Source of the DNA: Helicobacteraceae bacterium
GTDB taxonomy: Bacteria; Campylobacterota; Campylobacteria; Campylobacterales; Sulfurimonadaceae
Direction of reading: 5' to 3'
Assembly (NCBI GenBank): GCA_027038835.1
Contig: JALWGC010000008.1
Coordinates: forward strand, 62,001 to 126,000
Length of the DNA: 64,000 nucleotides
Shown here: positions 17,577-50,347 of the stretch, piece by piece
How the letters are laid out: every line of letters starts with the position of its first letter
How positions within the stretch are numbered: position 1 is the first letter of the stretch
The notes under the pieces: generated by a model
Told to the model about the DNA's origin: nothing
Databases searched by the model: none
What the model saw: only the letters and a program-made list of their open reading frames with translations
Translations under genes and position numbers: made by a program

Positions 17577-18698
17577 CTACTTGAACCAGCTTTTGACTTT
17601 GTCTATAGCGCTTTCAAGGAAGCTTTCATGTGGTTTGGACTCTTCTACGCCAAAAGAGTCTTGCAGTTTTTGCAAAAGCTCTTTTTGTTCCGAATTGAGC
17701 GATTTCGGATAGGTTATCTTGATTTGCGCTATGAGATCGCCTTTACCGTGACCGTGGACATCTTCGACCCCTTCCCCTTTGAAGACGAACTGCTGTTTGT
17801 CGCGCGTTCCTATGTCGAGTTTGAGTTCGAGTTCCCCTCTTAAAGAAGGGATGGTAAGGGTGTCGCCCATAACCGCTTGGGTGAAGAAAACAGGAATTTC
17901 GATGTAAACGTCGTTACCGTTTCGAACGAAATGTTTGTCCTCTTGAACTCTAAAGGTAACGTACAAATCTCCTCTTCTTCCGTGTTTGCTTATATTTCCC
18001 GCTCCCGCAACGCGCAATCTGTTCCCGGTATCGATCCCTTTTGGAATATCGATGGTGATGGAGCTTTTTTCTTCGATATAGCCTTTACCCTTACATTCGC
18101 TACATTTTTGCGCTATTTTCATCCCCTCACCATGGCAATCGGGACAGGTTTGAGAAAAGGTCATAAACCCTTGTCTTAGATACACCTGACCTTGTCCGTC
18201 ACAAGTTCTACAAGGTTCCAACTTACCGTCTTTAGCACCTGTTCCTTTACAGCTTTTACATGAAGTTTTGAAGGTGTAGTCGATAGTTTTCTCACACCCA
18301 AAAACAGCTTCTTCGAAGGTGATTTCCATCTCTATACCAAGATCGAGCGGGTATTTGTCGCGCTCTTTGGCTCTTTTTGCTCTAGAACCGCCGCTAAAGC
18401 CGAACATCTCTTCGAAGATGGAGCTCAAATCATCAAAACCTCCAAAACCGCCGGCAGAACCCATTTGCCCCTCAAGGCCGGCTTTTCCGTAGCGGTCGTA
18501 GATGGCGCGTTTTTCATCGTCGCTCAAAACTTGATACGCTTCGTTGCAAAGTTTGAACATGTGCTCGGCTTCTTTGTCGCCGTCGTTTTTGTCCGGATGG
18601 TATTTTTTCGCCATTTTTCGATAAGCGCGTTTTATTTCGCTTTTGTCGGCGTCTCTTGAGATTTCGAGTATTTCGTAGTAATCTACCTCTTCAGTCAT
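17577..18698 (-). CDS. dnaJ: Chaperone protein DnaJ
   Basis: Hsp40 co-chaperone of DnaK. J domain with KYHPDKN, a Gly/Phe-rich stretch at about 75-110, four CxxCxGxG zinc repeats ([32 protein letters not shown]), and the C-terminal substrate-binding domains. 373 residues. Its promoter region ends against the palindromic element that separates it from divergent recR. Neither grpE nor dnaK lies nearby. Confidence 0.97.
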
Positions 18699-18743: not shown

Positions 18744-18749
18744 ATTATA
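18744..18749 (-). promoter_or_regulatory. -10 box for dnaJ
   Basis: Minus-strand TATAAT about 45 bases before the dnaJ ATG. A plus-strand TATAAT at 18751-18756 lies next to it, pointing into the palindromic element. Confidence 0.5.
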
Positions 18750-18770
18750 CTATAATTTCAAATATAAGTT

Positions 18771-19034
18771 ATACCAAACCCAACTAAAGAGTGGGAATTT
18801 AAACGAACATATTGTAGTATAGTACAAGGCGAAAATCCGCAGGAGCTACTAGTAGCTTCAAGGGTTTTCAACGCGGTAATATGCTGCTATATGTTCGCCC
18901 TTCGGGTAAAAGATAAGCTACCATCTGCTGCGTTAGACTATCTTGAGGCTACCAGTAGCATCTGCGATAGTCTGCCTTGCATCTGATAGCTTCTCTTTTA
19001 TTTAAATTTCCCACTCTTTAATTGGGTTTGGTAT
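18771..19034. repeat. MITE-like palindromic element between dnaJ and recR
   Basis: About 264 bp bounded by near-perfect 33/34-bp terminal inverted repeats (18771-18803 and 19001-19034; one mismatch and one indel) starting ATACCAAACCCAA. Inside are two independent nested hairpins. One has arms 18804-18825 and 18875-18896 around AGCTACTAGTAGCT. The other has arms at about 18912-18942 and 18964-18993 around GCTACCAGTAGC. No coding capacity. TTA flanks both sides of the TACC...GGTA core, a possible 3-bp target duplication. This fills most of the 341-base gap between dnaJ and recR. Confidence 0.85.
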
Positions 19035-19059
19035 TAAAAAGCGATTAAAAAGAAAAGTT

Positions 19060-19635
19060 ATGAAATATCATTCGTTAGAAAAGTTCAACAAGCTTGTCGA
19101 AGCGCTCGAGGAGTTGCCGACGATAGGGAAAAAATCGGCGACGAGACTCGCATACCACATGGTGAGCAAAGACAGTTTTAATGCACTTCGCCTTGCACAT
19201 GCCATCGAAGATGCCATCGGGACGATAAAACGATGTCGAAAATGTGGCGGTATGAGCGAAGATGAGCTGTGTTTCATCTGTTGCGATGAAAGCCGAGACC
19301 GTCATGTATTGTGTATAGTGGAGAGTGCGAAAGATATTTTACTGTTTGAAGAGAACGCTCTTTTTGACGGTTTGTACTTCGTTTTGGAATCGTTTCAAGA
19401 TGTCGATATCGCTTCTTTGCGCTCACGTATCGAGGAAGATGATGTCAAAGAGGTAGTTTTCGCTTTGACTCCTTCGATTCAGAATGATGCTATAATTTTG
19501 TTTATCGAAGACAAACTCAAGGAGTTCGATATCACTTTTACCAAAATCGCACAAGGGGTACCGACGGGGGTGAGTTTGGAAAATATCGATATTTTGTCAT
19601 TGAGTAAAGCGATAGAAAGTAGGGTGAAGATTTGA
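19060..19635 (+). CDS. recR: Recombination protein RecR
   Basis: Component of the RecFOR/RecOR pathway that loads RecA at gaps. Helix-hairpin-helix LEELPTIGKKSATRLAYH, a Cys4 zinc finger (CRKCGG then CFIC), and a Toprim domain with VLCIVESAKD, ending in the Walker B-like region. 191 residues, slightly short but normal for Campylobacterota. Weak A-rich ribosome site; the upstream sequence is the palindromic element, so its promoter may lie in or just after that element. Confidence 0.95.
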   Translation: MKYHSLEKFNKLVEALEELPTIGKKSATRLAYHMVSKDSFNALRLAHAIEDAIGTIKRCRKCGGMSEDELCFICCDESRDRHVLCIVESAKDILLFEENALFDGLYFVLESFQDVDIASLRSRIEEDDVKEVVFALTPSIQNDAIILFIEDKLKEFDITFTKIAQGVPTGVSLENIDILSLSKAIESRVKI

Positions 19636-50262: not shown

Positions 50263-50347
50263 TGGTGCGACCGGCGAGATTTGAACTCGCACACCTTGCG
50301 GCACTACCCCCTCAAGATAGCGTGTCTACCGATTCCACCACGGTCGC
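50263..50347 (-). tRNA. tRNA-Leu(GAG)
   Basis: Class II tRNA with acceptor stem GCGACCG/CGGTCGC, D arm, anticodon stem CTATC/GGTAG with loop TTGAGGG (anticodon GAG), a long variable arm, TPsiC loop GTTCAAATC, and an encoded CCA. Read on the minus strand, behind atpE and its terminator. Confidence 0.96.

Follow-up and report, generated by a model that had tools for sequence, protein, structure and literature searches.

Does the long, gene-free palindrome between the divergent genes dnaJ and recR of a Helicobacteraceae bacterium move, or does it serve as a structured RNA? The initial annotation had set these two possibilities against each other and had favored a MITE or structured mobile repeat. 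The locus lies in a stretch of 64,000 nucleotides, which is the whole DNA that was analyzed and is referred to here as the window. Its features are compiled in Table 1. The element proper comprises 262 bp and is bounded by a 3-bp target duplication, which had been annotated as possible and is indeed present as a direct TTA repeat. The originally delimited 264 bp correspond to the element plus one palindromic base per side. The architecture of a nested palindrome with 33-bp inverted repeats enclosing two hairpins was described accurately, and as single-stranded DNA the 264 nucleotides fold far more stably than shuffled sequences (-64.4 kcal/mol versus -25.1 kcal/mol with a standard deviation of 3.5; z = -11.2; 0 of 200 shuffles equal). 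The two hairpins share unpaired boxes, are mutually inverted, and for each of them the inward-reading strand gives the best fold, with -40.3 kcal/mol in sense versus -22.4 kcal/mol in antisense direction for hairpin A, and -39.1 versus -32.0 kcal/mol for hairpin B.

Table 1. Positions of the element, its parts, and the flanking genes in the window
Feature	Position	Strand	Remarks
dnaJ	17577-18698	-	divergent from recR; element 73 bp before the gene
Left target-site duplication copy	18769-18771	.	TTA; direct repeat TTA/TTA
Palindrome as initially annotated	18771-19034		264 bp
Outer arms within these palindrome limits	18771-18803 and 19002-19034		about 33 bp each
Element proper	18772-19033		262 bp
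Left terminal inverted repeat	18772-18803	+	TACCAAACCCAACTAAAGAGTGGGAATTTAAA
Hairpin A	18804-18897	+ (functional sense)	covariance model match 18814-18886 (+); CAAGGC, 8-bp stem, GCAGG, stem/loop, TTCAAG, stem, AACGCG
Linker mini-hairpin	18898-18906	.	CCCTTCGGG
Hairpin B	18907-19000	- (functional sense)	same kind as hairpin A, inverted; covariance model match 18918-18990 (-)
Right terminal inverted repeat	19001-19033	-	
Right target-site duplication copy	19034-19036	.	TTA
recR	19060-19635	+	divergent from dnaJ; element 24 bp before the gene

The gene positions agree with the annotated location between divergent dnaJ and recR, and no open reading frame of at least 80 amino acids was present within the element, in line with the view that it contains no gene. 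At the gathering score, Rfam gave no match on the element, its sole match being a tRNA at 50266-50347, and the best matches of a permissive Rfam search were far under the cut-offs and not relevant. There was no convincing site for an intrinsic terminator or promoter in the element, and no inward promoter was evident. The outer tip TTGGTA could be an outward -35 box toward dnaJ, with TATAGT in the flank (together 18749-18777, minus strand), a combination that is not above chance.

A DNA search of the same 1.97-Mb genome identified a full-length copy at 90% (C19), two further copies whose core is related but whose ends, TACCATCGGTAACTAATTCCCAG, differ (C12, C6), three truncated copies (C3, C14, C4), and a 57-bp version consisting of the ends alone (C5). 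Within the window, a 24-base end motif occurred twice, with 0 occurrences expected. The covariance model R1, which was derived from eight half-elements found in this genome, added pairs whose ends are unrelated, for example ACTGACCTTACGCACC and TAAGTAATGAGGC. In the subfamily of the window (TACC), identical 3-bp TWA flanks were found in 13 of the 16 copies for which both ends could be read. TA was present on both sides of all 11 copies of the ATTACCG subfamily of genome G261, alphaproteobacterial copies mostly had a TA duplication within CTAG or TTAA-like sites, and the GGGCACCTCT subfamily showed 4-bp duplications (TTCA, TTAA, ATTA, TTCA) in some copies and imperfect ones in others.

For a comparison of the dnaJ-recR region, recR was located in 15 relatives. 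Four of them, including one of the same genus (G001; the others are G007, G009, and G037), have divergent dnaJ and recR genes without the element and a gap of 117-208 bp, compared with 361 bp in the window, or 97 bp when the element is subtracted; other relatives had an intervening gene or a different gene order. In the empty-site comparison proposed in the initial annotation, these sites show the absence of the element rather than the exact pre-insertion sequence, since they have diverged too far to be aligned base by base. The terminal inverted repeats, the TWA duplication, several copies per genome, the element-free sites, and the ends-only and one-hairpin derivatives together show that the element is a MITE. 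Copies are present in the genome and are patchy and multi-copy in relatives, which is the opposite of the single-copy sequence conserved in all relatives that had been named as an indication of a regulatory RNA. In another genome (L105, G017:C69:25368-25842), an element at about positions 158-429 interrupts an otherwise complete tRNA-Thr(TGT) in the anticodon loop, and the joined flanks result in a perfect tRNA-Thr(TGT) with CCA.

The search for a transposase with matching ends was successful for a sister subfamily and not for the subfamily of the window. Genome G044 contains an intact IS5-family element, TTAA|GGGCACCTCTAAAAAC...GTTTTTAGAGGTTCCC|TTAA, with a 343-amino-acid transposase that matches NF033581 (IS5 family) with 264 bits at a cut-off of 140 and also matches DDE_Tnp_1. 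This element is bounded by the ends GGGCACCTCTAAAAACC that are also those of the GGGCACCTCT subfamily. A MITE in genome G167 (L238) has the same ends as the G044 insertion sequence together with a TTAA/TTAA duplication, and these ends likewise bound decayed relatives in G300 and G275. DDE transposases of the IS5 superfamily would thus act in trans on the ends, as suggested by the ends and duplications of the sister subfamily. The TNA and TA duplications presumably fit IS5 subgroups. In the window's own genome, no transposase bearing the ends TACCAAACCC and no DUF772 transposase were found, and a search for end pairs of insertion-sequence length in this genome, G261, and Roseibium gave only MITE-length (about 250-270 bp) and ends-only forms. 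An intact DUF772 transposase copy of G257, detected in a search of 16 genomes, was rejected as a partner due to its other ends TTAATTAGTCAACCCTGAAAAACC. A decayed 924-bp IS5-type element with an ATAT duplication (L144, G300:C1:1292240-1294240) holds a Y1 (IS200-like) transposase fragment at 1387-1584.

R1 matches were present in 22 of 60 close relatives, with up to 41 per genome. With the wider covariance model R2, which was based on 74 half-elements, matches were found in 44 of 298 genomes of the phylum in a patchy distribution. When the four-box pattern alone was scanned across 84,980 species genomes, matches came from Roseibium, Novosphingobium, a Tepidamorphaceae MAG, Microbulbifer, a deltaproteobacterial MAG, Desulfuromonas, Gemmatimonadota, and Sulfurimonas; R2 counted 66 matches in Microbulbifer litoralis and 21 in the deltaproteobacterial MAG. 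Most of these taxa have the same design of terminal inverted repeats and hairpins, either with two hairpins in 264-274 bp or with one hairpin in 162-168 bp; for the matches of Gemmatimonadota and Desulfuromonas, no terminal inverted repeats were found. In the 33 measured Campylobacterota elements, the median span was 269 bp, with 27 elements within 263-273 bp, and the median pairwise identity of the first 33 end bases was 42% even when shifts were allowed. Nearly all Roseibium copies were exactly 268 bp long. Length (about 268 bp) and architecture are therefore fixed, whereas end sequences and duplication size (2, 3, or 4 bp) vary. The exact end motif of the window had no match in public genomes, phages and plasmids contained no DNA similar to the element of the window, and the hairpin pattern was not found in viral contigs.

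Each hairpin of about 94 nucleotides has the same order of parts, namely CAAGGC, an 8-bp stem, GCAG(GA), a short stem-loop, (TT)CAAG, an 8-bp stem, AACGCAG, and a long outer stem, so that the boxes AAGGC, GCAGGA, TTCAAG, and AACGC are kept between covarying stems. The linker between the hairpins consists of CCC/GGG with differing 3-base loops in relatives. In a model-fitted alignment of 74 sequences, two-sided changes occurred at 25 of the 26 pairs, and 598 compensatory cells were counted, compared with 175 in shuffled alignments and 88-123 in slid registers. A first, model-free alignment (MAFFT) gave the same picture, with two-sided changes at 15 of 26 pairs. In the outer stem of the hairpin and stem 1, the strand that runs from AAGGC to AACGC had 205 G-T wobbles versus 7 A-C, as counted over Campylobacterota, Alpha-, Delta-, and Gammaproteobacteria, and Gemmatimonadota.

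The strand sense was also evident from folding energies. To avoid a bias by the covariance model, elements were located by their end sequences; members of the window subfamily in the set of 31 elements had first been reached via DNA similarity or the model and were then delimited by their ends. All 62 hairpins of these 31 elements folded better in the inward direction, by a mean of -11.4 kcal/mol relative to the reverse complement, and the 22 alphaproteobacterial elements located via their ends gave the same result for all 44 hairpins (mean -10.8 kcal/mol), although these counts overstate independence, as copies within a genome are related. The stem formed by the outer terminal inverted repeats served as a negative control and had 26 G-T versus 25 A-C mismatches, in keeping with a part that lacks strand sense. 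On the basis of the strand sense and the wobble pattern, we infer that selection acts on the hairpin in its single-stranded form, more likely as RNA than as DNA. As the two hairpins are on opposite strands, the selected unit is each hairpin and not one full-length RNA. The first part of the initial annotation's choice thus holds, as the element is mobile; the either/or itself was too narrow, because the hairpins are also conserved as a strand-specific, RNA-like structure.

The reading that we favor, and regard as probable, is that a non-autonomous mobile element (MITE) is moved in trans and that its core hairpin acts as a single-stranded nucleic acid, likeliest as RNA. Host transcription entering from either side would generate hairpin RNA in the inward direction, and with the inverted pair, transcripts from both directions would meet a correctly folded hairpin first. 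The role that we very tentatively prefer is that of a co-transcriptional structure by which the element would deal with impinging transcription for its own benefit, possibly by protecting the ends or by lessening polarity, rather than by regulating a particular neighbor. With slightly less than even confidence, we further suggest that the AAGGC/GCAGGA/TTCAAG/AACGC hairpin represents a functional RNA (or single-stranded DNA) motif not described so far, that it acts through a factor conserved across bacterial phyla, and that it spreads as the core of a MITE superfamily that has switched ends and transposases while keeping a constant two-hairpin design of about 268 bp.

The effect on the host was addressed by simple open reading frame calls around 41 elements, 21 of which lie between co-directional genes, 13 between divergent, and 7 between convergent genes. 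At the 40 Microbulbifer loci, which nearly all have a single hairpin, the ratio of sense to antisense relative to co-directional genes was 11/11, and the pooled hairpin orientation versus host genes was 25/18 (p = 0.36). This lack of an orientation bias means that there is no visible effect on host transcription and no sign of host selection on orientation. Regulation of neighboring genes by the hairpin is not claimed, as the orientation is unbiased.

Alternatively, the hairpin might act as single-stranded DNA. The inward strand would then fold once it is displaced in the course of transposition, or while it is in the lagging-strand template, and a host or transposition protein would read the boxes. 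REP/RAYT and integron attC are precedents for the strand-specific recognition of hairpins. In agreement with such a function, DNA energy parameters also favored the inward strand, in 60 of 62 hairpins, and the unbiased orientation toward host genes would be expected if transcription were irrelevant. However, the G-T share in the outer stem of the hairpins (132 of 658 Campylobacterota cells) is more RNA-like, as G-T destabilizes DNA, and the two hairpins are optimized on opposite strands, whereas IS200/IS605 or REP ends use one. We therefore consider this explanation rather unlikely.

Clearly less probable still is an ordinary MITE with functionless inner palindromes whose stems stay paired because the arms are corrected against each other by template switching. 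Such correction is well established for quasi-palindromes and would keep the arms perfect while the sequence drifts, and the existence of ends-only and one-hairpin copies implies that at least part of the mobility does not require the hairpins. However, arm correction gives no reason for G-T on one strand without A-C (205 versus 7, with the inward strand preferred in 106 of 106 hairpins), the same unpaired boxes and the 8-bp spacing are kept from Campylobacterota to Gemmatimonadota, and the stem of the outer repeats, which would be subject to the same process, is unbiased. A single-copy cis-regulatory RNA between dnaJ and recR, which the high degree of structure and the closeness to both genes could have suggested, is refuted by the multiple genomic copies and by the absence from the divergent dnaJ-recR regions of the four relatives; the target duplication also speaks against it.

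The usual view of MITEs is that they are remnants of insertion sequences with filler insides. In the family analyzed here, it is the inside that is conserved, as the ends change beyond recognition and the hairpin, with its fixed boxes and strand-specific wobble, persists across Campylobacterota, Alphaproteobacteria, and Gemmatimonadota. Provided that the hairpin has a role, it becomes testable why structured cores are retained in non-autonomous elements, and the covariance models provide a handle to find and classify repeats that are missed by sequence similarity. No description of the hairpin-element family was found in a search of open-access literature.

Bacterial MITEs such as RUP, NEMIS/Correia, ERIC, bcr, and QMITE have been reviewed (PMC2229807, PMC10969869), and they have in common that they are short, non-coding, and intergenic, with terminal inverted repeats, AT-rich duplications of 2-4 bp, and stable stem-loop transcripts (PMC2229807, PMC10969869). 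Known families share their sequence within a genus or so and mostly form one long stem-loop, whereas the present family keeps its architecture and length across phyla but not its ends and stems, and its inner hairpins covary and have strand-specific wobbles. One subfamily resembles IS5-family insertion sequences in the outer approximately 16 bp and the 4-bp duplication, but only the tips are shared; the insertion sequence contains neither the hairpins nor the inner portion of the 33-bp repeat. Inverted hairpin pairs, irregular palindromes, and strand sense are reminiscent of REP/BIME and RAYT systems (PMC3733652). However, REP units have 20-40 bp with a GTAG/CGTC tag and neither terminal inverted repeats nor target duplications, and we did not assign the element to REP/BIME, as its hairpins of about 94 nucleotides lie inside an element bounded by terminal inverted repeats.

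Some copies showed further rearrangements. In Microbulbifer litoralis (G337), single-hairpin elements were arranged head-to-tail in two or three units with a spacing of 160 bp (C10:31343-31734, C1:37726-37958, C13:56044-56275). A 374-bp element (L343, G336:C19:499700-500250) has a hairpin that carries a further nested inverted repeat and looks as if one palindrome had inserted into another.

The Caulobacter CcrM-associated intergenic repeats (CIR) are similar in having two arms and a linker and in being alphaproteobacterial and intergenic (PMC2229807). They comprise about 110 bp, with GANTC in the terminal loop and no reported stem of terminal inverted repeats (PMC2229807), and in length and architecture they differ from the present family with its 262-274 bp and outer stem. 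The ends of many alphaproteobacterial copies, such as those of Roseibium (G334, L327-L341), contain GGACTCAT, with a CcrM-type GANTC in some. Transposition of the alphaproteobacterial copies might be tied to methylation. Among 33 alphaproteobacterial end pairs, some of which are spurious, 13 had GANTC within 25 bp.
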